Source: Treponema sp.
GTDB lineage: Bacteria > Spirochaetota > Spirochaetia > Treponematales > Treponemataceae
Length of the DNA stretch: 64,000 bases
Reading direction: 5' to 3'
Assembly (NCBI GenBank): GCA_016286365.1
Contig: JAEESN010000002.1
Coordinates: forward strand, 186,001 to 250,000
The translations under genes were made by a program, and so were the position numbers. Shown one piece after another: positions 17,755-33,747 of this stretch (position 1 is the first letter of the stretch; each line of letters starts with the position of its first letter). A model generated the notes under the pieces. It saw only the letters and a program-made list of their open reading frames with translations, ran no database searches and was not told the DNA's origin.

Positions 17755-18798
17755 ATGAGGGCTTTTGGACAATTTATTATTTATCTTTTTATCATCTTAA
17801 ACGCATCTCGTGTATTCTTTTCTAAACATATTAAAAAAGATTCCCTAGTGATTCTTGCACCTTTAAGCCTCATTCTTTCGGTTGCAAACATTTTTGCATA
17901 CGGGATTCACGGTATTACCCTTCAGCTTTTTGTTCTTTCCTGCCTGAGTGTAATCATAAATATTCATGCAATTTTACGCTATTCAGAAAAATTGTTCATA
18001 GACAGATTCAGCATTGTGATGAAGGGCGCTTGTATCCTTATCGATATTTTCTGTCTGATATCTTATATCTTCCTTCTTGTAAATAATCCTATAGAAATAA
18101 ATAAAAAATCGTTGAATGTAGTAGAAACAAAAGTTTATTACGAGGGAAGCTTTAGAAACGGATTTACCGAGGCAGAAGTTTTCTCGAAAAAATCAGTTTA
18201 TCTTACTGAATATAAAAAACGAGGTATGGTCGATAAGCCTAAAAATGTAATCGTTTTTGTTCCGGATAAGAGAGGTGATTCTTTTTCTTACAAACCATTT
18301 TTACAGCTTCTTTCGAATAAGGGTTTTATGGTTGTTTCCTGTGATTTTTATACTGATGATGCAGAGTGGCCTGTACAGCACAACGAAAAAATCTGGAGAT
18401 CTTATGAACTTACCCAGAAGAGTTTAAAAAACGGCTCACCTTACTCAGATAATATTCAGAAATATGAATATAACATCTCTGTAGAATGCAATGCACTTAT
18501 TACAATTCTTGATGAACGCTACGGAAAAGAGTGCCGCTACTTCTTTATAACAGACGGAATTGCAGACAGACCTGTTACAAAATTTATAAATTCTGAGCTT
18601 GTAACAGAAAAAGTAAGCGGAAGTTTTGCACTTGATTCAATTCCTGAATATGCAACTCCGGGTTACGGCTGTATAGAAATGACTAATCCGTTCATTGCAA
18701 GAAAACTTGATGTTAAAAAAGATAAAACTGCATTCATTCCAAAATATCTTGCTAAAAAAGCTTCCGAAAAGATTTACGAAGCATGGAGCGCACAATGA
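17755..18798 (+). CDS. Membrane protein with a C-terminal alpha/beta-hydrolase-like domain, unknown function
   Basis: A 347-residue protein I do not recognise. About four membrane segments occupy ~5-112. The rest looks like an alpha/beta-hydrolase core: NVIVFVPDKRGDSFSYKPFL, then KGFMVVSCDF, then YFFITDGIAD at the place where the nucleophile elbow G-x-S-x-G would be. The elbow serine is absent (TDGIAD), so catalysis may be lost. TGAGG precedes the ATG. Its stop overlaps the start of the Nif3-like gene as ATGA, so the two are translationally coupled. Confidence 0.6.
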   Translation: MRAFGQFIIYLFIILNASRVFFSKHIKKDSLVILAPLSLILSVANIFAYGIHGITLQLFVLSCLSVIINIHAILRYSEKLFIDRFSIVMKGACILIDIFCLISYIFLLVNNPIEINKKSLNVVETKVYYEGSFRNGFTEAEVFSKKSVYLTEYKKRGMVDKPKNVIVFVPDKRGDSFSYKPFLQLLSNKGFMVVSCDFYTDDAEWPVQHNEKIWRSYELTQKSLKNGSPYSDNIQKYEYNISVECNALITILDERYGKECRYFFITDGIADRPVTKFINSELVTEKVSGSFALDSIPEYATPGYGCIEMTNPFIARKLDVKKDKTAFIPKYLAKKASEKIYEAWSAQ

Positions 18799-19559
18799 CA
18801 CTCACAGAATTCGATAAATACATAAATTCTTTTTTAAAAAAAGAAGATTATGCCGCAGATATTTCTTTAAACGGAATACAGATTCAAAACTCTGCCCCGG
18901 ATTCAAAAGAGATTAAAAAAATTGCCTTTGCGGTAGATGCCTGTAAAGAGACAGCCGAGCTTGCCGTAAAAGAAGGCGCAGATGTCTTATTTGTTCATCA
19001 CGGATTATTCTGGGGAAGATGCCAGACTGTAACCGGAAGCCTTTACGAGCGACTTTCTTCTTTTATAAAAAACGATCTTGCTTTGTGTGCTTATCATATC
19101 CCGCTTGATGCTAATAACCCTTACGGAAATAACTATGGTCTTGCAAAAAGAATAAATCTTGAAAACTGTACGGAATTCGGACTGTGGCGCGGAATGAAAA
19201 TCGGTGTAAAAGGAGAACTTCCTTCCGAAATGACCGTTGAAGAGCTTGCAAAAAAAATACTCAGACCGGAAAGCCTTCCACGCATCCTTAAATTCGGAAA
19301 AGAAAAAATCCGTACGGTCGGAATTATTTCGGGTGGGGCGAGCGAAGAAGTAAAGGATGCAATCGACGAAGGTCTTGACTGCTATATCACAGGTGAATTT
19401 GAACATGCTGACTTTCACGTTGCTAAAGAAATGGGAATAAATGTAATTTCGGGCGGACACTACGAGACGGAAACTGTAGGAGTTTCACTTGTTATGGAAA
19501 AGGTTCAAAAAGAGCTTGGTCTTGAGTGTACTTTCCTTGAAGTTCCAACTAATCTTTAG
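18795..19559 (+). CDS. Nif3-like dinuclear metal-centre protein (YbgI family)
   Basis: A 254-residue member of the Nif3/YbgI family, whose hexamers bind two metal ions per subunit. Metal ligands are expected in VHHGLFW (~67-73), in the CAYHIPLDAN segment and in the C-terminal SGGHYETE, all present. An upstream in-frame ATG at 18783 would add four residues, but the ATG at 18795 has GGAG 6 nt upstream and overlaps the previous stop as ATGA, so it is preferred. The family is often annotated as GTP cyclohydrolase I type 2, but the true function is unsettled. Confidence 0.88.
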   Translation: MTLTEFDKYINSFLKKEDYAADISLNGIQIQNSAPDSKEIKKIAFAVDACKETAELAVKEGADVLFVHHGLFWGRCQTVTGSLYERLSSFIKNDLALCAYHIPLDANNPYGNNYGLAKRINLENCTEFGLWRGMKIGVKGELPSEMTVEELAKKILRPESLPRILKFGKEKIRTVGIISGGASEEVKDAIDEGLDCYITGEFEHADFHVAKEMGINVISGGHYETETVGVSLVMEKVQKELGLECTFLEVPTNL

Positions 19560-19571
19560 TATATTTAATAT
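19537..19571 (+). promoter_or_regulatory. lspA promoter, leaderless type
   Basis: TTGAAG (19537-19542), a 17-bp spacer and TATATT (19560-19565) lie inside the end of the Nif3-like gene. The -10 box is followed by 6 nt and the lspA ATG at 19572, and no ribosome binding site is visible. Confidence 0.55.
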
Positions 19572-20141
19572 ATGAAAAGTTTAGACGCAAATTTGAAATC
19601 AAAATTACTTCCGATTGTACTTACTCTTGTTGTAATCATCGTAGATCAGATTACTAAAATGCTTATAGTACGATACCTTCCTCTTAAGCCGGGACTATAT
19701 ATGGCATTTGGTCCTCAGTTTTTAGGGGATTTTTTACGAATTGTTCATGTAAGGAATATGGGCGCTGCATTCAGTTTTGGAGCAAACTGGTCAGCAGGGG
19801 CAAGAAGAGTATTTTTCTCTGTAGTTCCTACAATCATCCTTATTGGTGTTTTAATTGTATATTTCAGAACTAATGATTTTACAAAATTACAGAGATGGAC
19901 AATTGCCGGAATTGTAGGTGGTGGTTTTGGAAATATAATCGACAGAATCTTCAGAGCTGATGGCGTAGTTGATTTTATTGATGTTAAATTCTTTGGTCTA
20001 TTTGGGTACGAAAGATGGCCAACATTTAATTTTGCAGATTCCGTTGTAGTTGTGTGTGGATTAATCCTTCTTGTTTCTGTTATAAGTGGAATGATAAAAG
20101 AAGAAAAAGAACACCGCAAAAATAAGGCAAAAGGGGAATAA
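19572..20141 (+). CDS. lspA: Lipoprotein signal peptidase (signal peptidase II)
   Basis: A 189-residue inner-membrane aspartyl protease with four membrane segments that cleaves prolipoproteins before the lipidated Cys. Both catalytic aspartates are in their motifs: GGFGNIIDRIF (D124) and TFNFADSVVV (D156). The conserved VRNMGAAFSF stretch (~60-69) is also present. The C-terminus is a charged tail (KEEKEHRKNK). It serves the many lipoproteins of this genome, including the alpha-2-macroglobulin and the Lol-like system in this window. It probably has its own leaderless promoter despite lying 12 bp after the Nif3-like gene. Confidence 0.95.
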   Translation: MKSLDANLKSKLLPIVLTLVVIIVDQITKMLIVRYLPLKPGLYMAFGPQFLGDFLRIVHVRNMGAAFSFGANWSAGARRVFFSVVPTIILIGVLIVYFRTNDFTKLQRWTIAGIVGGGFGNIIDRIFRADGVVDFIDVKFFGLFGYERWPTFNFADSVVVVCGLILLVSVISGMIKEEKEHRKNKAKGE

Positions 20142-20147
20142 ATACGA

Positions 20148-20170
20148 GTGGTTTCGACAGGCTCAACCAC
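20148..20170 (+). repeat. Short REP-like inverted repeat between lspA and the next gene
   Basis: GTGGTT and AACCAC arms flank an 11-base loop containing TCGACAGGCTC. Short intergenic palindromes with a TTCGACAGGCTCA core occur in many unrelated bacterial genomes (recalled, not searched). The GC-richer sequence stands out from its AT-rich surroundings. It ends about 10 bases before the ribosome binding site of the next gene. Confidence 0.45.
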
Positions 20171-20196
20171 CGCAAAAAAAATGAGGTAAAACTAAT

Positions 20197-20592
20197 ATGG
20201 GAAAATTTGACGAAGAAATAACACAAGAATCAGAAGAGAAAAAAAAGGCAAAAATAGAAGCACAGAGAAAAAAGACAACAACTAATATCTTTTTATTTTT
20301 TGCATGCTGTTGGCATATAATCGAAACCCTTTCTATTATGATTGCAATGTTCATTCTTTATATTATTATCACATACAGAGTACTTCAGGTTCCGGGAAAT
20401 TCACAGGCTGCTGGAATTGCTTCGGCCATTATGTTTGTAGTTATTCTTGTAGGTGGAATGATTCTTGGATTCAGGGTTTATGTTCTTTCTATAAGATGGT
20501 TTATTAAAAAATATCATTACGAAAATAAACTCACAAAAGAAGTTCTTGACCGATATACTAAAATGGCCGGTGAAAAAGAAGAAAAAAAATAA
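20197..20592 (+). CDS. Small membrane protein, unknown function
   Basis: A 131-residue protein with a highly charged N-terminal tail (~1-28, E/K-rich), two membrane segments (~30-62 and ~72-96) and a basic/acidic C-terminal tail. I do not recognise a family. TGAGG lies 10 nt before the ATG. It sits between lspA and mtnN (14 bp gap to mtnN), so it may be co-transcribed with mtnN. Confidence 0.7.
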   Translation: MGKFDEEITQESEEKKKAKIEAQRKKTTTNIFLFFACCWHIIETLSIMIAMFILYIIITYRVLQVPGNSQAAGIASAIMFVVILVGGMILGFRVYVLSIRWFIKKYHYENKLTKEVLDRYTKMAGEKEEKK

Positions 20593-20606
20593 ATTCCGGA
20601 GTTTTT

Positions 20607-21302
20607 ATGACTGGTATAATTGGAGCAATGGAAGCCGAAGTTCAGTCGTTGTGTGATTCTTTAGAAGGACGTACACAGATTGAAGAAGGCGGATATGTTT
20701 TTAATAAAGGAAAACTCTTTAATAAAGACGTTGTTGTAGTAAAAAGCGGAATCGGTAAAGTAAATTCTGCTTTGTGCGCCCAGCTTCTTATTTTAAAATT
20801 CGGAGTAAATCAGGTAATAAACACAGGAATTGCAGGAGCAACGGGCGGAAATCTTGGTATTTTTGATTTTGTTGTTTCAAGCAAAGCACTCTATCACGAT
20901 TTTGATACAACCGCTTTTGGATATAAGCCAGGTCAGGTTCCGGGAATGGATCCGGAGTTTATTGCCGACGAAAAACTTTCAGATTCAGTTATAAAAGCTT
21001 TTTCACAGATGGATTTTTCTAAGGAACACAAGATTGTTAAAGGTCTTGTTGCAAGCGGTGATCAGTTTATCTCTGCCGGTGAGCATAAAGATTACATCAA
21101 AAAAACATTTAATCCGCTTTGTGTAGAAATGGAAGGCGCATCCATTGCACATGCGTGTACAATCAATAAAGTACCGTTTGTAATTGTACGCTGTATGTCC
21201 GATATGGCAGATGAATCTGTAAAATCAACTTACAGCTTTAACGAAGAAACCTGTGCAAACATGTGCGCAAGTCTTGTAAAAAAAATCATCGAAACATTAT
21301 AA
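20607..21302 (+). CDS. mtnN: 5'-methylthioadenosine/S-adenosylhomocysteine nucleosidase
   Basis: A 231-residue nucleosidase that hydrolyses MTA and SAH to adenine and a thioribose or ribosylhomocysteine, clearing by-products of SAM use. The N-terminus GIIGAMEAEV carries the active-site Glu (E11, equivalent to E12 of E. coli), VEMEGASIAH holds the ribose-binding Glu (E176), and RCMSDMAD holds the catalytic Asp (D199). NTGIAGATG is the purine-binding segment. GGAG precedes the ATG. It complements metK and the methionine-synthase reactivation protein elsewhere in the window. Confidence 0.95.
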   Translation: MTGIIGAMEAEVQSLCDSLEGRTQIEEGGYVFNKGKLFNKDVVVVKSGIGKVNSALCAQLLILKFGVNQVINTGIAGATGGNLGIFDFVVSSKALYHDFDTTAFGYKPGQVPGMDPEFIADEKLSDSVIKAFSQMDFSKEHKIVKGLVASGDQFISAGEHKDYIKKTFNPLCVEMEGASIAHACTINKVPFVIVRCMSDMADESVKSTYSFNEETCANMCASLVKKIIETL

Positions 21303-21306
21303 AAGA

Positions 21307-21338
21307 ATAAAAAAACACGCTGAAAATTAATCAGCGTG
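21307..21338 (-). terminator. Rho-independent terminator for the exported-protein gene
   Basis: A perfect 8-bp stem CACGCTGA/TCAGCGTG (21316-21323 and 21331-21338) is followed on the minus strand by a run of T, so it ends transcription of the minus gene at 21390-21923. On the plus strand the hairpin is followed by CTTTCC only, so it may act weakly after mtnN. Confidence 0.8.
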
Positions 21339-21389
21339 CTTTCCTGAATATTAAACTCCATCAATTAACAGAGTTTTTAAGTTGTCCGA

Positions 21390-21923
21390 TTAGAACGGAA
21401 CAAACCAGGTTACACCAACATAAACGTGAATCATGTTGAAAACGGAAAGTAAACCGCCGACAAATGCACCTGCAGGGTCACCTTCGTCAATAACAGACCA
21501 GAGCATTGTAGGAGTAAAGTCACATCCAATATCGATATTTCCTTTTCCAGGACCCCAGTCAAAATCTCCAAAGATAACTCCGGTTTTAACGAATGGAAGA
21601 ACACCGTCTGCACTCATTAAACCACTGGAAATTGTAATACCACCAGCAAGATAATAATTATTTAAATCGAGCTGTAAGTATGGACTTGCATATAAAAATT
21701 TTAAATCTTTTGGGAAGAGAAGATCTTCTGTAATGCGTGCACCTACAGAGAAACCAAAGCCTTCATCAGAAGCAAATTTATATGCAACTTCTTCGTAGAG
21801 AAATGGCATACCAAGACAACTTACTTCAACACCACCATCAAGGCGAATTCCCTGTTCATAAGCAGAAAGTGGAGCAGCAAAAAGGCCTAATACTAATAAT
21901 GTAAGACAAAATCTTTTTTTCAT
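21390..21923 (-). CDS. Exported protein, possibly a small beta-barrel, unknown function
   Basis: A 177-residue protein with a clear signal peptide (MKKRFCLTLLVLGLFAAPLSA) and a mature part rich in Gly, Phe, Tyr and alternating hydrophobics, ending in VYVGVTWFVPF with a terminal aromatic residue, as in outer-membrane barrels. I do not recognise a family. AAGGAGG precedes the ATG. It is a single minus-strand gene between plus-strand blocks with its own terminator, so it is likely monocistronic. Confidence 0.7.
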   Translation of the reverse strand: MKKRFCLTLLVLGLFAAPLSAYEQGIRLDGGVEVSCLGMPFLYEEVAYKFASDEGFGFSVGARITEDLLFPKDLKFLYASPYLQLDLNNYYLAGGITISSGLMSADGVLPFVKTGVIFGDFDWGPGKGNIDIGCDFTPTMLWSVIDEGDPAGAFVGGLLSVFNMIHVYVGVTWFVPF

Positions 21924-22040
21924 AAAAACCTCCTTAGTAGTAACTACCTTCTTATATTATTTTAGCAGATATTTATAAAAAGGAAACAAATTTATTATAA
22001 GAAATCTATTAGAAAAAAAGATTAATTTTTTTTAAATTTA

Positions 22041-22055
22041 TGCTATATTTTTTGT
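22041..22055 (+). promoter_or_regulatory. Extended -10 promoter abutting the DUF1538 start
   Basis: TGC-TATATT (TG at 22041-22042, box 22044-22049) forms an extended -10, followed by 6 nt and the ATG at 22056. No ribosome binding site is visible, so a leaderless transcript is likely. Confidence 0.5.
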
Positions 22056-23510
22056 ATGAATGTGCTTAATAAACTCAAGGAAACACTGATTTCTGTACTC
22101 CCAATTGTGCTCATCGTTCTTATTCTGGGCGTAACAGTGGTTCCATTGGAAAAAGAGCTTTTATTAAGATTCATTCCATCCTCATTACTTTTGATTGCGG
22201 GTCTTACAGTATTTCTTCTTGGAGCCGATATTGCAATCCAGCCGATGGGAGAAAGAACCGGAGCCGAGCTTACAAAAAAGAGGAAACTCTGGCTTATCCT
22301 TCTAACTGCTTTTTTAATCGGATTCATTGTTACTGTAGCAGAGCCCGATATCCAGGTTTTTGCAAATCAGGTACAGAATATCTATCCTTCAATAAATAAA
22401 CTCTTTGTAAGCCTTGTGATTGGTCTTGGAGTTGGTTTTTTTCTGATGGCTGGGCTTCTGCGTTCGGTATTAAATCTTTCTGTAAAAGTTGTTTTATTCA
22501 TTGCCTATCTTATTTTATTTTTTGTGAGCATATTTACTCCTGATTCTTTTTTTGCAGTTGCCTTTGATTCAGGTGGAGCTACAACAGGCCCCATGACAGT
22601 TCCTTTTATAATGGCTCTTGGTATTGGTGTTTCAAACGTCCGTTCAGATAATAAAAACAGCTTTGGACTTACAGGTATTGCCTCTGTTGGCCCTGTCCTT
22701 GCGATTATGCTTTATTCTATTTTTATGAATAAGGCGGGGCTTTTAAATTCTCTTGGTGCAAGTGATGTCATTAGCACCAATTCTTCGTTTACCGCTCTTT
22801 CTGTAATCTTAAAAGAAGTGATTATTTCGATTTCGCCGGTGTTTGTGCTTTTTATAATCTTTCAGTTAACACTTTTAAAACTTACAAAACGCCAGCTTTT
22901 TAAAATCATAATCGGTTTTGCTTACTGTTTTACAGGGCTCACTTTATTTCTGTTCGGAGTAAACAATGGTTTTATGCAGGCCGGCCTTGCTCTTGGTAAA
23001 AAGCTTGGTGAGCTTGTAAACGTAAATGGAGGAGCCTGGTATATTCTTTTATTGATTACGGGTCTTGTGTTTGGAGCAATTATTGTCTGTGCGGAACCTG
23101 CTGTATGGTGTTTGAGTGAACAGGTGGAACAGGTTTCGGGCGGTACAATCAGAAGAAAGATGCTTTTAATCTTCCTTGCCGGAGGAACTTCTTTAGCAAT
23201 AGGTCTTTCTTTGTGGCGGGCTGTTTCGGGCTTTAATTTAAAATATATTCTGATTCCGGGTTATTTAATCGCCTTTATCCTTATGATTTTTAGTCCCGAT
23301 ATGTTTTCGGGCATAGCATTTGATTCTGGCGGTGTTGCTTCGGGGCCACTTACTTCGACCTTCGTTCTTTCGTTTACGATTGGAGCTTCGAGTGGGGCTG
23401 CCGGTAATTCAGATTCTTTTGGTGTAATCGCCCTTGTAGCGATGATGCCTTTAATTGCGGTTCAACTTATGGGAATTATTTATAAATTTAAAACGAGAGG
23501 TACCAGATGA
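22056..23510 (+). CDS. DUF1538 family membrane protein with internal duplication
   Basis: A 484-residue polytopic membrane protein, 12 or more helices, of the DUF1538 family. The sequence is an internal tandem repeat. The first half has VTVAEPDIQVFANQV and SPDSFFAVAFDSGGATTGPM, and the second half has IIVCAEPAVWCLSEQVEQV and SPDMFSGIAFDSGGVASGPL. The repeated FDSGG-(A/V)-T/S-GP loop probably lines a pore or substrate site, one per repeat in inverted or parallel arrangement. Substrate is unknown. The stop overlaps the PII-like gene by 4 nt (ATGA), which predicts a regulated transporter. Confidence 0.82.
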   Translation: MNVLNKLKETLISVLPIVLIVLILGVTVVPLEKELLLRFIPSSLLLIAGLTVFLLGADIAIQPMGERTGAELTKKRKLWLILLTAFLIGFIVTVAEPDIQVFANQVQNIYPSINKLFVSLVIGLGVGFFLMAGLLRSVLNLSVKVVLFIAYLILFFVSIFTPDSFFAVAFDSGGATTGPMTVPFIMALGIGVSNVRSDNKNSFGLTGIASVGPVLAIMLYSIFMNKAGLLNSLGASDVISTNSSFTALSVILKEVIISISPVFVLFIIFQLTLLKLTKRQLFKIIIGFAYCFTGLTLFLFGVNNGFMQAGLALGKKLGELVNVNGGAWYILLLITGLVFGAIIVCAEPAVWCLSEQVEQVSGGTIRRKMLLIFLAGGTSLAIGLSLWRAVSGFNLKYILIPGYLIAFILMIFSPDMFSGIAFDSGGVASGPLTSTFVLSFTIGASSGAAGNSDSFGVIALVAMMPLIAVQLMGIIYKFKTRGTR

Positions 23511-24157
23511 AATATAAAATCATAGTTTCTATTGTTCCTCATAACAGCGGTCAACTGATTATTGATGCATCAAGAAATGCCGGTGCTACCGGGGCTACAG
23601 TTTTGATGGGAAAAGGTACGGCGGCAAATTCAGTTTTGCAGATGCTTGGTTTTGGTGATTCATCAAAGGACGTTGTTTTAATCATCATAGAAGAAGAAAA
23701 AGAGAAGGATGTTTTTTCCGAAATTTTAAAAGTAACCGAAAATAAAAAGAAGCGGTTCGGAATCATTTTTACACTCGATGCGGGAAGTTTTATAAAGGCC
23801 GGAAAAAAACAGAAGGATAATGAAGGAGAAAAATATATGGATAAAGAAAATGACTATCAGATGATAAATATAATCGTAAACAAGGGGCTTGCAGAAGAAG
23901 CGATGGCTGCGGCAAGAAAAGCGGGTGCTGGCGGTGGAACTATAATCGGTGCGCGTGGAACAGCAAAAGAGGGTGATGCAAAATTCTTTGGAATGGAAAT
24001 TGTTCCCGAAAAAGAAATGCTCATGATTTTAGTTCCTACAGCTAAAAAAGATGATGTTATAAAAGCAGTAACAGAGCTTTCATGTTTTTCTAAGGCAGGA
24101 AGCGGAATTGTATTTTGTAACGGCGCCCAGAATTTTACAATGCTTGGAAATGAATAA
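23507..24157 (+). CDS. Tandem PII-like regulatory protein (two domains)
   Basis: A 216-residue protein made of two PII-like domains (~1-100 and ~117-216). Each has the beta-alpha-beta start and a Gly-rich turn: GATGATVLMGKGTA in the first, GAGGGTIIGARGTAKEGD in the second. The classical T-loop with its uridylylated Tyr is not evident, so this is a PII-like rather than a GlnB/GlnK protein. It is coupled by ATGA overlap to the DUF1538 protein and probably gates it in response to a nucleotide or other metabolite. An in-frame ATG at 23837 with AAGGAG 8 nt upstream could separately produce the second domain. Confidence 0.8.
   Translation: MKYKIIVSIVPHNSGQLIIDASRNAGATGATVLMGKGTAANSVLQMLGFGDSSKDVVLIIIEEEKEKDVFSEILKVTENKKKRFGIIFTLDAGSFIKAGKKQKDNEGEKYMDKENDYQMINIIVNKGLAEEAMAAARKAGAGGGTIIGARGTAKEGDAKFFGMEIVPEKEMLMILVPTAKKDDVIKAVTELSCFSKAGSGIVFCNGAQNFTMLGNE
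23823..23839 (+). promoter_or_regulatory. Strong internal ribosome binding site and ATG inside the tandem PII gene
   Basis: AAGGAG at 23823-23828 is 8 nt from an in-frame ATG at 23837 (residue 111), exactly at the linker before the second PII domain. The second domain, about 106 residues and the length of a normal PII protein, could be translated on its own. Confidence 0.5.
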
Positions 24158-24198
24158 TCAGGACACTGAATACAGAAAGGCAGATACAGGATTTTTAT

Positions 24199-25026
24199 AT
24201 GGAAAACGAATTAAAAGAAAGATTTATAAATCTTGAAGAAGTTGATTCAACAAATACATATGCATTAAAACTCATAGACACTTACGAAATGCAGAAAAAG
24301 ACAGAGCTTCTTCCAAAAATCACAGTGATTGCAGGAAAACAGACTGGTGGAAGGGGCCGGATGAACAGAAAGTTTTATTCACCCGAATTTGCGGGACTTT
24401 ACATGTCTACAATTTACTTTCCAAAAGAAAGAATTCTTACTCCTGCTTTGATTACTCCTCTTGCGGCAGTAGCTGTTTCAAGGGCTTTGTATAAAAAATC
24501 TGGAATAGAAACTCAGATTAAATGGGTGAATGATATTTACATCGGAACAAAAAAAGTTTGCGGAATTCTTGCAGAGGGACACATCGATACAAAAAAGGGA
24601 ATGGTTGATTCAGTTGTAATCGGTTTTGGATTAAATCTTTTTAACAGGGCATTCCCCGAAAGCATAAAAAATAAGGCAGGTTCAGTTTTTTCCGATAAGG
24701 ATTTTACAAGCGACGAAAAAGCAATCTATAAACAGGAAATTGCAGAATTAATACTCGAAGAATTATATGCCCTGCTTGATAATCAGAAAGAAGTGTGCAG
24801 CGGCGAAAGCGGTTCTAACGAAGTTCTAAAACAGGCTATGAATGAATACCGCGAAAGGTCGAATGTAATTGGTAAAACGGTTGAACTATTTCCTGTTATA
24901 AACAATACAAGAAGCTATAAGGCTTTGATTCTCGATATTACGGAAAAGGCACAACTTAAAATTCAGAAAGAAGACGGCTCGATCCACTTTATAGACACCG
25001 GCGAAATCTCGATGAGTATGGATTAA
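24199..25026 (+). CDS. birA: Biotin-[acetyl-CoA-carboxylase] ligase
   Basis: A 275-residue class I biotin protein ligase without the N-terminal DNA-binding domain of E. coli BirA. It adenylates biotin and attaches it to the carrier protein of biotin-dependent carboxylases. Landmarks are LEEVDSTNTYA (~12-22), the biotin/ATP loop TGGRGRMNRKF (~51-61) and KWVNDIYIGTKKVCGILAE (~110-128), which includes the catalytic Lys. The ribosome binding site is weak (AGG). It starts 41 bp after the PII gene and converges on pbpC. Without a helix-turn-helix it cannot repress biotin genes itself. Confidence 0.92.
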   Translation: MENELKERFINLEEVDSTNTYALKLIDTYEMQKKTELLPKITVIAGKQTGGRGRMNRKFYSPEFAGLYMSTIYFPKERILTPALITPLAAVAVSRALYKKSGIETQIKWVNDIYIGTKKVCGILAEGHIDTKKGMVDSVVIGFGLNLFNRAFPESIKNKAGSVFSDKDFTSDEKAIYKQEIAELILEELYALLDNQKEVCSGESGSNEVLKQAMNEYRERSNVIGKTVELFPVINNTRSYKALILDITEKAQLKIQKEDGSIHFIDTGEISMSMD

Positions 25027-25058
25027 GCGTGCGCATTTTGGAGTCGGGGGATATACGT

Positions 25059-25126
25059 GCATTCCCGGGGCCCCGGATTTTGCCATGCATTTGTGGGCAC
25101 GAGAAAGATGTATTTCCGGGGCCCCT
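25059..25126. repeat. Two GC-rich CCGGGGCCCC palindromic repeats between convergent genes
   Basis: CCGGGGCCCC occurs at 25065-25074 and again at 25116-25125, 51 bp apart, each preceded by a related G(C/T)ATT(C/T) lead-in. The whole 113-bp birA-pbpC gap is much richer in G+C than the surrounding sequence and contains no T-run, gene or tRNA that I can see. Function is unknown. Confidence 0.6.
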
Positions 25127-25139
25127 GCAGATTGTATCC

Positions 25140-27506
25140 CTACTTTACTTCAAATGAAAGCTCAGCGCTCTCATTTCCGCATTTTACCGTAATCTTGTGA
25201 TTTCCTTTATTTACCGGAAGATAAAAATAAAACGGCCGGTCCAGCGTTGTATAATATTTTCCATCGTATTCAACTGTTGCCCTGTCTTGTTGACCACCTA
25301 TAATTTCGAAGTTGATGGCCTGCCTTTCTTTATATAAACTTGTTTCGTAAAAAACAGCATTATTGTTCGGTGTTAAAAACGAAAGTTTTGCTGCATGATA
25401 GTCCAGGATTCCTTTTTCTCCGTACAGGCGGAACCACTGCTGGTATTCAGGCGGATAATAAGTTTTTGAGATATGATTTTCTGTTCTGTGCCAGTCGCAT
25501 TTTCCCGGGTTTAAATTTTCAGGAATGTATTCGATGAGCGCTGCAGGACATTCAGGGGTTGCAAGCTTACCCGAAAGAGAGCAGATTCTTTTCTGGACGT
25601 AATGTTCAGGTTTTTTGAATTCTTCAAAAGAAGAATGGTTTTTTGAGTAATGCAGCACAAGTAAATCCAAAACGTTTCGTGCAACCCACGCTGGAAGTGA
25701 GCTACCTGTTTTTCCGATTACAGTTTCTCCGGAAAAGTTTCCCATCCACACTCCGATTGTGTAATCAGGTGTTGCTCCAAGTGCGATGATGTTCTGGTAT
25801 TGATTTGCAGTTCCAGTTTTAAAGATGGAAGGGTAATCTGTCTGGAATGTCTGAGTATAACCAAAACCAAGCGACCTTGAAGCTTTGTCGGAGAGAATGG
25901 AACAGATTACTCTTGCAGTGTCCGGTTCAAAAACCTGTTTTCCACGGCGGGTTATTTTCTGGATTTGGGCGGGGGCGTTTTTCCGGTACGAGAGGGGGAG
26001 GGAGAGGCCGTCGCGGGGAAAAACGCTGAATGCACGGACTAAATCTTTAAGAGGGACTTCCTGGACGCCAAGGGCAATTCCAAGGTCTCCGGTTATAGCT
26101 CCGTGCGAAACATCAATGCCAAGCTCAAAAAGCTTATTTACATATGCATCCACAGATATTTCCGAAAGGGTATCTACAGCCGGAACATTCAGACTGGAAG
26201 CAAGAGCAACCCTCATCCTGATTGGACCGTTATAGCGGTTATTAAAGTTTGCAGGAATGTATACTGCCTGTTCGCCATATTCTTTTGGTATATCTGCGAG
26301 TATCCTTGAAGGATACATTAATGGATTTCCATCTTTATCTTTTGTTTCCATGGCTGTAGCATATAAAAAAGGCTTCATGGAACTTCCCGGCTGATTAGGA
26401 ACTAAAACACCGTCAATCTGGCCGTTATGATTTGTGTCAAAAAAGTCTCCGCTTCCAACCCAGGCTATAACAGAATTATCTTTATTGTTTATTACAAGAA
26501 TAGCACCGTTTGTAATTCGTGCATTGGCAGACTGTTCAAGCGCTTCGTGTAAATAATTTTCTGCACAGAACTGGACATTCAAATCGGCTGCAAGCTGGAT
26601 TTCGTATGGAGGTTTTTCATCGGAAGAAGCCCATAAGTTTTGAAGATAGTTTATGTAGTGAGGCATGTAAAAAGGGTATTTATATTTTTCTGCCTTTTTT
26701 GACGCCGCTAAAAGATTTTCCATGATATTTTCATCAGAAAGCTTTGTTGAAAATGCATTTTTATAGATTAGCAGGGCTTTTTGGGCACAGTTATCGGGAT
26801 GATTAATCGGGTTATAAAGGGACGGGCTTCTTGGAATGACTGCAAGGAGGCAGGCTTCTTCGTCCGTTATGTCTTCTATTTCTTTTCCGAAAAATGTCCT
26901 GGCTGCCGAAGTAATTCCTTCCGAATTCATACCGAATGGAACAGTGTTTAAATAAAGTTCAAGAATCTGGTTTTTAGAAAGCTTTGCTTCGATTTTAAAA
27001 GCGTTTAATACATCCGAAAGTTTTTTTGAAAGTGTTTTTTCCTGAGATGGAGTAATGATTTTAGAAAGCTGCATTGTGATTGTAGAAGCACCACGAACAG
27101 TTCTTCCGGTAGAAGAATTCTGTCTTAAAGCGTTGAGCACAGCAATAAAATCAACTCCTGTATGAAAGAAAAATCTTTTGTCTTCTGCTTCCAGAAATGC
27201 TTTTTTTACATTGGCTGGAATTTTTTTATAAGGAATCCATTCACGGCGTAATCCGTCTTCCAGAGAAGTTACCTGAATAAGATATCCGTTCTGATCATAG
27301 ATTCTTGTGCTGTATGGTTTTTCGCGGAGAGTTTTAAGCTCTTTGTACGGAATGATTTTTAAAACTATAAGAGTTGTATAATTGATTCCCAGAAGAATCA
27401 GGATGATGAGTGAAAGAATTTTGTGTTTATGATAAAAATCTGAAAAAAAAGAGCCAAAAAGCTTTGGATTAAAAGATTTTATTTTGTTTATTAAATTGTG
27501 TTTCAT
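25140..27506 (-). CDS. pbpC: Penicillin-binding protein 1C (bifunctional glycosyltransferase/transpeptidase)
   Basis: A 788-residue class A PBP of the 1C type. A short cytoplasmic tail and a membrane segment (~29-52) precede the GT51 glycosyltransferase domain with EAEDKRFFFHTGVD (catalytic E108) and the GASTITMQL motif. The transpeptidase domain shows PGSSMKPF (S375, K378), SLN (ASSLNVPAVD) and KTGTA, and a BiPBP_C-like beta domain ends the protein. It builds peptidoglycan at the periplasmic face. It is downstream of the alpha-2-macroglobulin gene, a conserved pairing in many bacteria. No ribosome binding site is seen before its ATG because a terminator fills the gap. Confidence 0.94.
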   Translation of the reverse strand: MKHNLINKIKSFNPKLFGSFFSDFYHKHKILSLIILILLGINYTTLIVLKIIPYKELKTLREKPYSTRIYDQNGYLIQVTSLEDGLRREWIPYKKIPANVKKAFLEAEDKRFFFHTGVDFIAVLNALRQNSSTGRTVRGASTITMQLSKIITPSQEKTLSKKLSDVLNAFKIEAKLSKNQILELYLNTVPFGMNSEGITSAARTFFGKEIEDITDEEACLLAVIPRSPSLYNPINHPDNCAQKALLIYKNAFSTKLSDENIMENLLAASKKAEKYKYPFYMPHYINYLQNLWASSDEKPPYEIQLAADLNVQFCAENYLHEALEQSANARITNGAILVINNKDNSVIAWVGSGDFFDTNHNGQIDGVLVPNQPGSSMKPFLYATAMETKDKDGNPLMYPSRILADIPKEYGEQAVYIPANFNNRYNGPIRMRVALASSLNVPAVDTLSEISVDAYVNKLFELGIDVSHGAITGDLGIALGVQEVPLKDLVRAFSVFPRDGLSLPLSYRKNAPAQIQKITRRGKQVFEPDTARVICSILSDKASRSLGFGYTQTFQTDYPSIFKTGTANQYQNIIALGATPDYTIGVWMGNFSGETVIGKTGSSLPAWVARNVLDLLVLHYSKNHSSFEEFKKPEHYVQKRICSLSGKLATPECPAALIEYIPENLNPGKCDWHRTENHISKTYYPPEYQQWFRLYGEKGILDYHAAKLSFLTPNNNAVFYETSLYKERQAINFEIIGGQQDRATVEYDGKYYTTLDRPFYFYLPVNKGNHKITVKCGNESAELSFEVK

Positions 27507-27510
27507 AATA

Positions 27511-27557
27511 AAAAAAAGTTGCCTTAGAAACAGTATATACTATTTCTAAGACAACTT
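27511..27557 (-). terminator. Terminator/attenuator between alpha-2-macroglobulin and pbpC
   Basis: Arms AAGTTG-C-CTTAGAAA (27516-27530) and TTTCTAAG-A-CAACTT (27543-27557) pair over 14 of 15 positions around a 12-base loop. On the minus strand the hairpin is followed by a run of seven T, and the pbpC ATG begins 4 bases after it. This is a strong rho-independent terminator placed directly against a start codon, so pbpC expression would need read-through. Confidence 0.85.
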
Positions 27558-27570
27558 TAATAGCGATTAA

Positions 27571-30500
27571 CTATTTAATCTGAACTAAATATCCGTCGCT
27601 TCGTCCGAATACTTCCGGTTCGTACATACATTCAGACTGAACAGGAGGTGTTGGATAAACACCGCGTCTTGTTGCCCTGAATGTGAACGAAACAGTCTTT
27701 GAGCCTGAATAGAAGCTGTCCCAGAAGAACTGAACTTCGTTATCAAGAATAGTCTGATTACTGTAGTTTACGTATGAATAATAATCATCGTAGTAATAGC
27801 TTTCAGAATCGTAGTAATCTTCCGGAGATCTTGATGGAAGTGTTACAAACTTCTTATCGAGGATTTCGGCACCAGATGGAACCGGACATCTTAAAGCAAC
27901 GTAGTATCTGTCTCGTTTAGAAGACAGGCGGATTGTTGCCTTATATGTTCTTCCGTCTTCAAGAGTGATTACAGAATTTCTTCCGTTTTCTTTGTTGATT
28001 ATTTCACCTGTATAGTAATCAGTAATTGTGTAATCAACTGTAAGACCTTCATCCCTCTTATTCTGCATTTCATCAGGTAATGCATAGTTCATTAAAAGAG
28101 TATAGAAGAGATATCCTGTACCATCTTTTGCAAATGTAACTGGGATAATCTTATCTTTTGGAAGATTCTTTACAAGTTCATCTTCGAATGGAAGCTTGAG
28201 TACCTTAGGTTTTGCATTTACACCCTTGAAGGATTCTTTTACGGCTTCTTTTCCGTTAAGAGAAACTGTAGCAGTATAGTTTGTATTATCCAGGTTACGA
28301 GCCTTGATGTATGAGTAGATAGAATCGAGTACGTGTGCTGTAGTTGTTGTACTCTGCCAGTATCCTGCTTTCTGTTCCATAAGGAGAGTATAGAGGAGTC
28401 TGTCTACCATCTTGTCGTTTGGATTAATCTGAGCATAAAGCTGTAAGAGTAATGCAAGTTCCTGAGTCTTGTCGTTATACCAGTACCAGTTTCTGTTTTT
28501 CTGTTTATGAGAAACTGTAACAGAGCGTTCAACCGGCTGGAGATATGCTCTTAAATGATCTGCAATTTCTTTTCCAATCTTTTTAGAGCTTGAAGCTTTA
28601 CCAAAGTTATATGCAAGACCGACTAATGCTTCTTCCGAAATTGTGAGAGAGTTTCTTGTTTTGTTCAACTTAGAAAGAAGAAGTTCACAAGAGTCGTCTC
28701 CGAGCATCTTGAGTACAAAGCAGTAGTAAGCCTGCATGTATGTATCTCCTTCCTGCTTGTCGATATTTGCCTTAAGATATTTTACAAGCTTATTGATATC
28801 GTAACCGAGTTCATTGTCTGTATAGCCTCTCTGTTTTGCAGCCGCATAGATGTAAGCAAGTCTTAAAGAAACATAGAAGTTTTCTTTTATTGAATCATCC
28901 GGCCAGTAAGGGAATCCACCATTTCCATGCTGTACATCACCCCATTTCTGTGTGAATGATGTTACACACTTCTTAACGTTAGAAATCTTACTGTCCATTG
29001 TCATGTTGAATACATCTATGTAATCTCCAAAGAGAACTAAAGGAAGAACTCTAGAAGACTGCTGTTCCATACATCCGTAAGGATATCCAAAGAGGTAATT
29101 TACAGAAGAACTTAAGATTCCAAGACGTGTTGCATCGAGTGTGAATGTAAGATCACCTCTTCCATCTTTAGCAAAGCCAGGGATTGCAAGTTCTTCTACA
29201 ACCTTAGTTTTTGGAGCATCTGTTGTCTGGCCAAAGAGTGCAACAGTATCGTAAACATAAGTTTTTTCGATTACGATTGGTGTAACAAGTTTTTCGTTCA
29301 GTACATCAGATTTAATTGTATAAACAAGTTCTACAGTTCCTGCCTTTTCTGCAGCTACATCAAAGTAAACCACAGAAGAATCTCCGGCACCTACATAAAC
29401 CTTGTGTTTTGCAGGACCATCAACAAATGCTTTTCCAGGAACAGTCTTTCTTCCTTCCTGAATATCCTGGAATGTATCTTTTACAGGAGTATTTGCTTCC
29501 ATAGAAACAGTTACTGTAATCGGCTTGTCCTGAAGGTTAGTGATAAGAACACCACATTCTGCAGTATCGCGTTCACGCATTCTTCTTGGTTGTACCTGCT
29601 GAACATTTACAGGATTCTGTGCCTGGATTTCTTTTTCCTGGAGGGCAAAAAGATCGTCTTTAACACCGAATGCTGTTACACGGTAAGTAGTAAGGTTGTC
29701 CGGCATCTTGAATGTACATGTAACCTTACCGTTCTTATCTGTGATGAGGGCCGGTTCAAAGAATGCAGTTGGTCTAAAGTCTTTTCTTTCCTGATCCTTA
29801 GTTCCTTCTGCATCACCACCCTGGAGGTTTTTAATACTGTAAGTTACAGGATCCATGATATTAGCTCGAGAATCACCACCGGTTACAGAAAGAGGGAAGT
29901 TATATCTTGAGTAGAAGTAAGAGATAGGATCTGGAACGTGGTAATCGATCAAATCAAGAACACCGCGGTCTACAGCCATAGCAGTTAATTCTGCGCCTTC
30001 AAGAGGTTTTCCGTTCTTTGTTGCAGTAAGGGTGATTTTTGCAGTTTCACCAGGTTTATAAATATTTTTGTCCGATTCTACTTTTACAGAGAATGCACGT
30101 ACATAAGGGTTTACGAAAATCGGAGCAACACCATAGTATCCCTTAGGTTTGTCTAAGTCGGTTTCGCCATATTCGTGAGTAGGTTTTCCTGAACGTACTG
30201 AGTATGAAGAAACAGATACATAAATTACAGGAACGTAGTTAGAAGCAATCTTTACGTCGATTACGTTAGAAGGAGAATCAAAGTGTCTTACTTCTTCTGT
30301 AAAGATACCTTCGCGTTCAACTGTAATAAGATAATCACCACTTGGGAGTGAGCTTTCGAGGAGGAGCTGAGCAGTTTCTCCAGGATTATATTCATTCTTG
30401 TCCGGAGTGATGTTTATAGACTGACTGTTATAGCGGTCGTACCAGTAAGAAGTTCCACCGGTTGCATAGAATTCGTAGAGTGTTTTAACTTCTTTTCTGT

Positions 30501-33500
30501 TTTCGTCGTAACCTGTGATGTAAACAGAGTACCATCCGCATTTTTTTGGAGTAAAGCTGAACTGATTTAATTTAGTATCAAGCTCTCCTTCCTGAACATT
30601 TTCTTCAACTTCTTCGTAGCGTGTATAAACGGTGTCATCAACACTCTGTTCGTGTACGACTCTCCATGTGTGGAGGTTGATTGAGTATTCAAGATTAGAA
30701 ACCTGATCCTTAATCTGTTTTGCGTTGAGTTTGTTTCCGTCTGTATCTACAAGAACGTAATCAAAAGTAACCTTTGTATTAATCTTTGGATATCCGCCTG
30801 CTTTTCCTGCTCGTCTAAGACCTGCATAATAAGTTGCCGGATGAACGAGGAATGAGCTTGAAGTATAAATCCTCTGATTAGAAACATCTGTTACGCTTGC
30901 TTCTGCACGGTAAATATAAGGATCTCCACCCTGCTGTGGTTTTGTAGAGCATGAAACATTTGCATTTCCGCTTGAATCAAGATTGCCGTATGAATCAGAC
31001 CAGTATTCTCTGTCGCCGTACCAGCGTCTTGAACCGAATGTAAAGTCCTTTGTTTCTGGAGTTCTTGGATTGAATCTTGTCTGCTGGATGTACCAGTTCA
31101 AAGAGTAAGAAGCATTGCTTAAAGCTCCACCTGCAAGATAGCTTGCATTGAGTTTTGCTGCAATGGTGTCGTTGGCAAAGAATTTATCTGAACCGGCTGT
31201 AATAGAAGCCTGAGAACGAACTTTTTCGAAGTATGCAACAGTGAAAGAAGTTGTAAAGTAATCTTTATAGCCATCTCTGTAGTATTTAATTATATAAGTT
31301 CCAGGTTCAGTACCGTCTGGAATCTTAAATGAACCGTAGAAACCACCGTTTTCGGAAGTTGTTCCATACATCGGGCTGATGATTTCTGAGCTGTCGTACC
31401 ATGAACCTTCACATCTGATTGTGTAATTCATGCCATCCACAGTTTTTAAAGTTCCAAGAGCCTGATTGCGGTCAATTCCACGGAAGGTAACAGTTTCGCC
31501 AGGTTTATAAAGACCACGGTCTGTGAACATGAAAGTTCTCTGTTCAACATTGTTTACATAAGAAACAGAAGAAGTAGAAACACCTTCGCGCCATGAGCTG
31601 TGAGAATATGGGCTGAAGATAACCTTATCGTTTCCGCTTTCTACATAAACATAAGTATTTACATAGTAGCCGTTTCTGTTCTTAAGTTTAGAAATATAAT
31701 CAGCTACCTGACTTGATGAATAGTTGAGGACACAAAGACCGTTTTTATCTGTAGTTCCCGAGGCAAATGCGTTAGATTTATAATCACTATAAGGTAATGA
31801 AGTGTTCTGCGATAAGTGAAGATAAACTTTTGCATTTGGAACAGGTTTACCGGTAGAAAGTTTTGTTACAAGTAAAACAGATTTATTGATTGCGTTTCGT
31901 GCTGTAACACCAAGGTCTGTAACCTGAACAGTCATGTGATTAGTATTTGTAGAACGACCGTCATTATAGCTGTAGTATGAATCATAAGTACCGGTAGCAT
32001 AGAAGCGGACAAATCCGTATCCGTCTTTAGAAAGATAAGGATTCAAATCAACTTCTTCAAAATTTCTGCGGTTTCTTACGTTTGTTTCAAAGTAAGTCTT
32101 TTTAATACCGTAATCTCTGCCCTCTACAAAGAAAGATTCTTCATCATTTCTCCAGTTGTAGCTTGTATCAAGAGGATTCAAAGTATTAGAAAGTGTGTAA
32201 TGACCGTCTGCATTCATGTATTCAAAAAGGAGTTTATGAGGGAACTGAGCTTCGAGAATACGTGAGCCTGAATCAAGATATCTTACATAACCCGAAATAG
32301 GTCTGATTTTGAATGAATGTCTTGCAGCAACAGAATTTTCTGTGTCTATAAGTGACTGACCATAAATATCTTTAATCTTCTCGCTAAAGCTGATTGTGTA
32401 ATTTTCATCGAGGGTTAATGGAAGACCCTTGATTGTAAGATATGTGCCCGAAAGAACAAGGTTTTCGTCCTTAAGCCTAAAACCCGGAATGCTGATTTTA
32501 ATATTATTTAAAAGTGTGTTGCGGTTAGGAAGTTGAGAGAAAGAAACTTCAAGAGAATAGCGTCCTTCCTTATCTGGATAACCAGCCCACTGAGAGATAT
32601 TATTGATTTTGAATGGTTTTAAAGTGTAGTAAGTATGTTTGTCCGAATAATATCCGTCTTTTAAGTTAACTTCTACATATGCATCGTGAGGAACAGGGTC
32701 TCGGATAGTAATGCTGAATGTATTTGTTTTTCCAAGTTCCTTATTTGCAACGTGAGTGTAATCCCAGCGGAAATATTCTTCGTAAACCGGAGTAATCTGG
32801 AATCTTACTTTTTTATTGTTAACCCTTACTATAAGATTATCCCTTACCTTAGAAGAAGAAACCTGATAGTTAAAGCGGATGAGCATTTTATTTTCGTTAG
32901 GAGGAGTAACACCTACGTACTGGTTGTAAGAATAGTTTTCGTTCTTTGTAAATCCAGGCCATACTCGTTTGAGGCTTAAAGGTTCAGCTTTTGTTGTAAA
33001 TGTTGTCTGACCCTGAATTTTATCACCGGAATTTGATTTTAAGTTTGGATCGATTGTGATTGTATATTCGATTGAAGGATCTGCTGCTTCCGAAGCTTCA
33101 AAACTTAAATGCTGTGTACCGTACCAGATGAAAGTACCTTTTAATGGAGGTGTGATTTTCATTACTTTCGAAGTGGTAGAAGGACTCTGATCAAGCGAAG
33201 TTAATGCTTTTACAGGTTTAGAGAAAACAACATAGAAAGTAGGGAAGCGGTTTTCAGAAACTACTGTAGAAAGAGGACCCCAGTCTTCGATGTAGAATGA
33301 GTGATCCGGAATTTCTTCGCCTTCTTCGTTTGTAGTGGTAGAAGTAAATTCAGGAGAAACAACCCTTTCTGTAGCCTTTGGGACATCCTGACGTTCTGTT
33401 TTATAAACAGTTTTATAATCCTTTAAGTCTCTTAAGCCCGGTATAACAGATTCAGTCTTCTGATTATTTTCTGCAGAAGAAGTGTTTTTAATCTTTTCCG

Positions 33501-33747
33501 GATTAGCATTGATTTCGTCCGGAGTTTCTGTTATATAAACAGGTTTTAAGTACTTAACGATTTCCGAGGCCGGAACTGTGGCATAAGTACTATCTACATC
33601 TATTTCTTTATAGCCGGCGCGTGGTGCACCAGAGTTATCAAGAGCGCGTTTTTTAAAAGAAGCTTCCGAAGGATCTTTTGCACAGTTTGATAAAAGAAAT
33701 ACACATAAAATAGAGCATAAACTTAAGGTGAATTTTTTAAATTTCAT
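27571..33747 (-). CDS. Bacterial alpha-2-macroglobulin lipoprotein (thioester protease trap)
   Basis: A 2058-residue lipoprotein with signal peptide and lipobox (LLSNC, lipidated C22). It has many macroglobulin (MG) beta domains, an alpha-2-macroglobulin core with a bait-like region (~1400), and a thioester motif CMEQ with C1559 and Q1562 followed by an all-helical domain (~1560-1870) and receptor-like C-terminal domains. Such proteins trap attacking proteases covalently in the periplasm. They pair with PBP1C, which repairs damaged peptidoglycan. The intact thioester places it with the YfhM-type rather than the thioester-less group. A Tyr/Ser-rich segment (YYDSESYYYDDYYSY) near the C-terminus is unusual. 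Confidence 0.93.
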   Translation of the reverse strand: MKFKKFTLSLCSILCVFLLSNCAKDPSEASFKKRALDNSGAPRAGYKEIDVDSTYATVPASEIVKYLKPVYITETPDEINANPEKIKNTSSAENNQKTESVIPGLRDLKDYKTVYKTERQDVPKATERVVSPEFTSTTTNEEGEEIPDHSFYIEDWGPLSTVVSENRFPTFYVVFSKPVKALTSLDQSPSTTSKVMKITPPLKGTFIWYGTQHLSFEASEAADPSIEYTITIDPNLKSNSGDKIQGQTTFTTKAEPLSLKRVWPGFTKNENYSYNQYVGVTPPNENKMLIRFNYQVSSSKVRDNLIVRVNNKKVRFQITPVYEEYFRWDYTHVANKELGKTNTFSITIRDPVPHDAYVEVNLKDGYYSDKHTYYTLKPFKINNISQWAGYPDKEGRYSLEVSFSQLPNRNTLLNNIKISIPGFRLKDENLVLSGTYLTIKGLPLTLDENYTISFSEKIKDIYGQSLIDTENSVAARHSFKIRPISGYVRYLDSGSRILEAQFPHKLLFEYMNADGHYTLSNTLNPLDTSYNWRNDEESFFVEGRDYGIKKTYFETNVRNRRNFEEVDLNPYLSKDGYGFVRFYATGTYDSYYSYNDGRSTNTNHMTVQVTDLGVTARNAINKSVLLVTKLSTGKPVPNAKVYLHLSQNTSLPYSDYKSNAFASGTTDKNGLCVLNYSSSQVADYISKLKNRNGYYVNTYVYVESGNDKVIFSPYSHSSWREGVSTSSVSYVNNVEQRTFMFTDRGLYKPGETVTFRGIDRNQALGTLKTVDGMNYTIRCEGSWYDSSEIISPMYGTTSENGGFYGSFKIPDGTEPGTYIIKYYRDGYKDYFTTSFTVAYFEKVRSQASITAGSDKFFANDTIAAKLNASYLAGGALSNASYSLNWYIQQTRFNPRTPETKDFTFGSRRWYGDREYWSDSYGNLDSSGNANVSCSTKPQQGGDPYIYRAEASVTDVSNQRIYTSSSFLVHPATYYAGLRRAGKAGGYPKINTKVTFDYVLVDTDGNKLNAKQIKDQVSNLEYSINLHTWRVVHEQSVDDTVYTRYEEVEENVQEGELDTKLNQFSFTPKKCGWYSVYITGYDENRKEVKTLYEFYATGGTSYWYDRYNSQSINITPDKNEYNPGETAQLLLESSLPSGDYLITVEREGIFTEEVRHFDSPSNVIDVKIASNYVPVIYVSVSSYSVRSGKPTHEYGETDLDKPKGYYGVAPIFVNPYVRAFSVKVESDKNIYKPGETAKITLTATKNGKPLEGAELTAMAVDRGVLDLIDYHVPDPISYFYSRYNFPLSVTGGDSRANIMDPVTYSIKNLQGGDAEGTKDQERKDFRPTAFFEPALITDKNGKVTCTFKMPDNLTTYRVTAFGVKDDLFALQEKEIQAQNPVNVQQVQPRRMRERDTAECGVLITNLQDKPITVTVSMEANTPVKDTFQDIQEGRKTVPGKAFVDGPAKHKVYVGAGDSSVVYFDVAAEKAGTVELVYTIKSDVLNEKLVTPIVIEKTYVYDTVALFGQTTDAPKTKVVEELAIPGFAKDGRGDLTFTLDATRLGILSSSVNYLFGYPYGCMEQQSSRVLPLVLFGDYIDVFNMTMDSKISNVKKCVTSFTQKWGDVQHGNGGFPYWPDDSIKENFYVSLRLAYIYAAAKQRGYTDNELGYDINKLVKYLKANIDKQEGDTYMQAYYCFVLKMLGDDSCELLLSKLNKTRNSLTISEEALVGLAYNFGKASSSKKIGKEIADHLRAYLQPVERSVTVSHKQKNRNWYWYNDKTQELALLLQLYAQINPNDKMVDRLLYTLLMEQKAGYWQSTTTTAHVLDSIYSYIKARNLDNTNYTATVSLNGKEAVKESFKGVNAKPKVLKLPFEDELVKNLPKDKIIPVTFAKDGTGYLFYTLLMNYALPDEMQNKRDEGLTVDYTITDYYTGEIINKENGRNSVITLEDGRTYKATIRLSSKRDRYYVALRCPVPSGAEILDKKFVTLPSRSPEDYYDSESYYYDDYYSYVNYSNQTILDNEVQFFWDSFYSGSKTVSFTFRATRRGVYPTPPVQSECMYEPEVFGRSDGYLVQIK

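Follow-up and report, generated by a model that had tools for sequence, protein, structure and literature searches.

A DUF1538 membrane protein and a tandem PII-like protein encoded as a recurrent bacterial gene pair: a putative PII-regulated transporter module

The gene pair and the proteins it encodes

Within the window, the 64,000-nucleotide stretch of Treponema sp. DNA analysed here, two genes on the + strand encode a fused membrane protein with two DUF1538 copies (484 aa; 22056-23510) and a tandem PII-like protein (216 aa; 23507-24157), both recognised with Pfam and AlphaFold2. The reading frames share the 4 nt ATGA (23507-23510, +), in which the transporter stop codon overlaps the PII start codon, and the preliminary description of this DNA gave the coordinates and the overlap correctly. 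Of 146 distinct fused units, 44 end their DUF1538 gene with ATGA and 13 more with GTGA. The host genome measures 2.68 Mb and its closest named relatives are Treponema from rumen and gut. A 177-aa secreted-looking protein with no Pfam match is encoded between the nucleosidase and DUF1538 genes (21390-21923, - strand), and at 25140-33747 a penicillin-binding protein 1C adjoins a 2058-aa lipoprotein-like protein, probably as the usual pbpC/alpha-2-macroglobulin pair.

The 484-aa protein matches DUF1538 (PF07556) over two stretches with an E-value of 2.8e-123 and 409.5 bits (curated cut-off 22.6 bits), and the proposed duplication is genuine, as the alignment of half 1 with half 2 gave an E-value of 1.3e-39 at 30% identity over 227 columns (hhalign). 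Repeat 1 (approximately residues 1-225; 22056-22730, +) carries AEPD at residues 95-98 and FDSGGATTGP at 170-179, and repeat 2 (approximately residues 244-484; 22785-23507, +) carries AEPA at 346-349 and FDSGGVASGP at 422-431. Both AEP-(D/A) elements described earlier are thus present; of the two FDSGG..TGP copies claimed with them, FDSGG does occur twice and TGP in the first, but the second reads SGP. The acids E96 and D171 of repeat 1 and E347 and D423 of repeat 2 are invariant across alignments of 18 and 78 relatives, and in the AlphaFold2 model (pLDDT 93.7, pTM 0.91) they are located at breaks between predicted half-helices. In long DUF1538 forms WDCGG or WDSAG replaces FDSGG and the four acids are still present, and these acids together with both motif pairs are conserved from the long forms to the window protein. 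Judged from the sequence, conserved acids at helix breaks that are kept in the long forms would suit a cation/proton exchanger. A known transporter fold was sought for the model and not found: Foldseek returned no match to solved folds below an E-value of 0.03, the best VIA alignment had a Z of 5.1 over 58 residues, with weak rows to NaCT and EAAT that speak neither for nor against a relationship, and a sequence search for solved relatives of DUF1538 found none. A more fitting view of the two halves is that they are the inverted repeats of a single transporter, encoded in other bacteria by separate umpA and umpB genes.

The partner protein matches P-II (PF00543) over two stretches with an E-value of 5e-12 and 46.5 bits (cut-off 25); per domain, in a genome-scale search with the same cut-off of 25, the C-terminal domain scored 30.0 bits and the N-terminal domain 22.9. 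That it contains two PII-like domains, as had been proposed, is borne out by the hhalign comparison of domain N with domain C (E 7.3e-26, 27% identity). Domain N (residues 1-98; 23507-23800, +) has a shortened T-loop, GTAANSVLQMLGFG, and a B-loop down to FGIIF, and domain C (residues 113-216; 23843-24154, +) has the T-loop GTAKEGDAKFFGMEIV, followed by PEKE, and the B-loop GSGIVF. In the AlphaFold2 model of the single chain (pLDDT 86.6, pTM 0.81) domain C aligns with the best PII structures, GlnK, GlnB and SbtB, at Z values of about 9-10 over 84-98 residues (VIA), with an rmsd to most of them of 1.5-2.5 Å, so that the predicted fold of this domain is clearly that of PII (ferredoxin-like), with a T-loop. 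Domain N was assigned to PII by its profile homology to domain C. A search for viral relatives of the tandem protein found none.

For the ligand residues, the tandem protein was aligned to the classical PII linked to AmtB in the same genome, where a 566-aa frame encodes AmtB and then a classical PII domain in frame (G000:C31:281042-282664; L194, L198). We take the ATP/2-oxoglutarate contacts of classical PII to be K58, D88, K90, R101 and R103, and tyrosine 51 of the T-loop to be the uridylylation site. Compared with the AmtB-fused PII, domain C keeps GGT, its T-loop region is shorter by some six to eight residues, PKVK is changed to PEKE and GDGKIF to GSGIVF, and the C-terminal arginines are absent. 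At the tyrosine position domain C has F (KFFG against KYRG) and domain N a residue other than Y, and the uridylylation tyrosine is therefore absent from both domains. Since in this alignment the classical contacts are mostly replaced, a sensor of ATP and 2-oxoglutarate is unlikely and the ligand probably differs from that classical pair. Another nucleotide is possible; the host genome contains one c-di-AMP synthase gene.

Recurrence, copy number and surroundings of the pair

With profiles derived from the window pair and close relatives we scanned a sample in which, once duplicates were removed, 168 distinct DUF1538 units remained; they come from Spirochaetota, Bacillota, alphaproteobacterial plasmids and the phylum of Desulfovibrio. 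Loci were taken by best DUF1538 score, at most 30 per phylum search plus 80 from the genome collection. PII domains were found immediately 3' on the same strand in 162 of the 167 informative units, a fraction that is not a census, because sampling by best score over-represents close relatives. This count joins 160 units called by script with L129 and L131, which lay beyond the script's distance limit or ran into a contig end, and it leaves aside L068, whose unit ends at the contig end. The median gap from the DUF1538 stop to the PII domain is 15 nt. Among the five remaining units, one (L024/L144) has a PII domain joined in frame to the DUF1538 C-terminus, with a tandem PII gene also upstream (L024), and at L021 a second DUF1538 unit stands just behind a DUF1538-PII pair. 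Only L007, L015 and L142 truly lack PII; L015 and L142 share a genome, and the motifs of L142 are altered. The coupling put forward in the preliminary description thus holds up, with the in-frame fusion adding to the count; pairing is common, which excludes that the two genes are rarely adjacent, and the pairing itself is close to certain. Among the genomes sampled, DUF1538 genes occurred in 84 of 249 from one Bacillota phylum and in 83 of 296 from the window's phylum, and many of the named relatives come from animal guts and rumens.

The number of PII domains is far less constant than the pairing. In the units surveyed the DUF1538 halves are always two, in a single fused gene or in two genes. 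Fused DUF1538 is followed by a tandem PII gene in 119 units and by two PII genes in 2, and split DUF1538 by a tandem PII in 11 units, by two PII genes in 5 and by one PII gene in 6. Another fused form is longer, at about 630-750 aa, and its PII partner measures about 370-415 aa; this partner showed three PII domains in 7 units, and one or two in the remaining units of this form. As the third domain gives a weak match, in most cases under the Pfam cut-off, 'triple' here rests on custom profiles together with protein length. The idea of two gates and two sensors matched in number does not survive these counts, since PII is present as 1, 1+1, 2 or about 3 domains, and strict 2:2 matching of transporter halves and PII domains is rejected by the single and triple forms. 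Where two PII genes occur, the profiles identify the second more clearly as C-type; in L062/L148 and L060/L172, the examples with a fused unit, the first is plainly N-type, and PII genes that stand alone fit the C-type profile best. Because relatives carry separate N-type and C-type genes, the tandem protein looks, from its profiles, like a fusion of two specialised paralogues. One contig carries two divergent long DUF1538 units with PII after each (L117:635-6501).

The genes next outward served as an internal control. Their strands are mixed (15 + and 18 - upstream, 19 + and 13 - downstream) and no family occurs in more than 4 of 56; by strand and family of the outer neighbours no conserved wider operon was found in Clostridia, and the linkage is therefore specific to PII. 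In the Treponema family the pair is placed between an MTA/SAH nucleosidase gene, often with LuxS, and the biotin ligase gene birA, which recur there without an obvious functional link to it. Two genomes of this family (G290, G086) have the tandem PII gene at the same locus and no DUF1538 gene found in the genome; the PII genes are intact and occupy the interval from the nucleosidase (or LuxS) to the biotin ligase (L211:3804-4448, L212:3953-4564). These two genomes have lost DUF1538 and retained the tandem PII, which is the main fact against a purely transporter-bound role of the PII protein.

For the long-form branch we surveyed 34 neighbouring proteins from 15 loci. Cyclic-nucleotide-gated channel genes are next to 4 of the 15, L119 included, and KUP K+ transporter genes next to 2 (L117, L118), the second of which combines two KUP genes, DUF1538, a multi-domain PII protein and a CitMHS-family permease (L118:840-6109). 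The long forms at these K+-gene loci are of a different subfamily, with WDCGG instead of FDSGG. At L119:3152-7943 a long DUF1538 and a multi-domain PII stand with the cyclic-nucleotide-gated channel, and a cyclase gene is also near. Riboswitch control upstream of the pair was considered and not found: near 15 loci, at gathering thresholds, there was no Na+, Li+ or other riboswitch, only unrelated T-box and tRNA, and in the window (18000-28000, by E-value) no riboswitch or relevant RNA family appeared beyond one chance match.

Proposed transport function and control by PII

The substrate was called unknown in the preliminary description, which is outdated, as UmpA and UmpB, the DUF1538 proteins of Halomonas zhaodongensis, form a heterodimer that works as a pH-dependent Na+(Li+,K+)/H+ antiporter with a pH optimum of 9 (PMC5484666). 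UmpAB was active in E. coli in the absence of any cognate PII, and PII is therefore dispensable for transport; this is the one biochemical study that we found, UmpAB was expressed there without a PII partner, and PII is absent from its text (PMC5484666). Papers on cable bacteria use UmpAB as a marker of salt adaptation. The window protein scored 152.6 bits to UmpA and 158.2 bits to UmpB, far below both equivalog cut-offs (490 and 500 bits; NF041627, NF041628), and it therefore falls outside the UmpAB equivalogs and its transported ion could differ. Its first half is the best match to UmpA and its second half to UmpB. Split units with 316-360 bits to UmpA/UmpB have a single PII gene directly 3', and with them the pairing comes near the branch that has been characterised; in the plasmid searches no Halomonas plasmid matched. 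Cation/proton exchange by the window protein is plausible.

We propose, at a probability of roughly 0.6, that the two genes form a module in which a PII protein binds the cytoplasmic face of a UmpAB-type monovalent-cation/proton antiporter and gates it according to a ligand. The module would pair a UmpAB-family (DUF1538) secondary transporter, in which the inverted repeats are fused, with a dedicated PII-type regulator. Antiport of protons against a monovalent cation, Na+ or K+, would run through membrane acids, presumably the conserved ones that each repeat carries at its two broken-helix elements, and the PII protein would form trimeric PII rings on the cytoplasmic face. Insertion or withdrawal of the T-loops could then hold the transporter in one state, as in GlnK/AmtB and SbtB/SbtA, and a small cytoplasmic ligand, probably other than the classical ATP/2-oxoglutarate pair, would set the switch. 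What the proposal builds on was observed by computation: the family assignment of each protein and the duplication within it, the PII fold, a gene pairing that is nearly universal, and the loss of the classical ligand residues. Antiport activity would carry over from a distant family member, and the manner of control from what the literature says of GlnK and SbtB. Regulation of the DUF1538 transporter by PII is likely; physical binding, inhibition, the ligand and the transported ion in this Treponema are what we infer.

The most serious alternative, which we consider rather unlikely, accepts the regulation by PII and changes the cargo to an organic or inorganic anion, ammonium or, through a channel, K+, with Na+/H+ exchange confined to the Halomonas UmpAB branch. 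The low equivalog scores and a fold that matched no solved antiporter are compatible with it, as are the Clostridia neighbours, which have no ion theme, and PII partners elsewhere control transporters of NH4+ and HCO3- (PMC10710835). However, the long forms and the window protein alike retain the four membrane acids and both motif pairs, DUF1538 is among the gene features listed for the prediction of optimal growth pH (PMC13255231), and the long-form branch has KUP and cation-channel genes as neighbours.

A role of the PII-like protein purely in structure or assembly, with ligand sensing lost and the PII fold retained as no more than a trimeric scaffold, is improbable. Both domains carry replacements of the classical ligand residues, domain N is more degenerate than C, and the copy number varies freely, as such a scaffold would allow; yet the T-loop regions and the GGT / RGT / PEKE signature are strongly conserved in C-type domains, as for a working site, and UmpAB is active in E. 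coli without a partner. That the genes are merely co-transcribed and the PII protein has another target is very improbable: it would explain why G290 and G086 keep PII without DUF1538 at the same locus, but the pairing spans four phyla while every other neighbour changes, and the fusion in L144 joins the two in one frame.

The pair of PII protein and transporter, for which a PII-gated monovalent-cation/proton antiporter is the preferred reading, is real, widespread and apparently undescribed. Both parts are already annotated separately, and in NCBI plasmid records the downstream gene is even labelled 'P-II family nitrogen regulator'; the link between them is what appears to be new. No paper containing both 'P-II family' and 'DUF1538' was found in the searchable open-licence literature, nor was any description of the link found there searching from either family. 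If each such antiporter has its own PII, this would be a common system of ion and pH homeostasis under metabolite control, and the one-, two- and three-domain PII forms offer natural material for studying the conversion of a trimeric signalling protein into a single chain. According to a 2023 review, PII regulation seems confined to transporters able to be trimers (PMC10710835). More tentatively, and with doubt outweighing confidence, the observations might be read jointly: DUF1538 would be an unsolved transporter fold, and its PII partners would form a gradation, from one chain through two chains and a tandem to about three domains in a single chain, along which the ring is progressively tied into fewer chains and has a new ligand specificity. 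The whole would then be one more class of transporter under PII control, coupling a cellular signal to the homeostasis of pH and monovalent cations, and may break the trimeric-transporter rule.

Comparison with known systems

UmpAB belongs to the same Pfam family as the window protein and likewise has the UmpA-like half before the UmpB-like half; it consists of two proteins, whereas the window protein is a single fused chain that scores far under the equivalog thresholds and has a PII gene behind it. As in GlnK-AmtB, the gene of a PII-fold regulator adjoins that of a membrane transporter, which a T-loop is expected to enter, although here the PII protein has two domains per chain, lacks the classical ATP/2-oxoglutarate and uridylylation residues, and is paired with an unrelated transporter family. 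The AmtB-PII fusion of the same genome likewise joins PII to a transporter and therefore gives the unit a precedent there; it differs in its classical PII sequence and its ammonium transporter. The family of PG0541, a transporter-associated PII-like protein (NF045581), is weakly similar to domain C, at 17.9 bits under a 45-bit cut-off. The R-loop of SbtB carries a CGPxGC motif (PMC13249358), which is absent from the 216-aa sequence. SbtB-SbtA resembles the pair in combining a PII-like protein outside the classical GlnB/GlnK group with a secondary transporter, and differs in that most relatives of the window PII have two to three PII domains per chain and that the transporters are unrelated.
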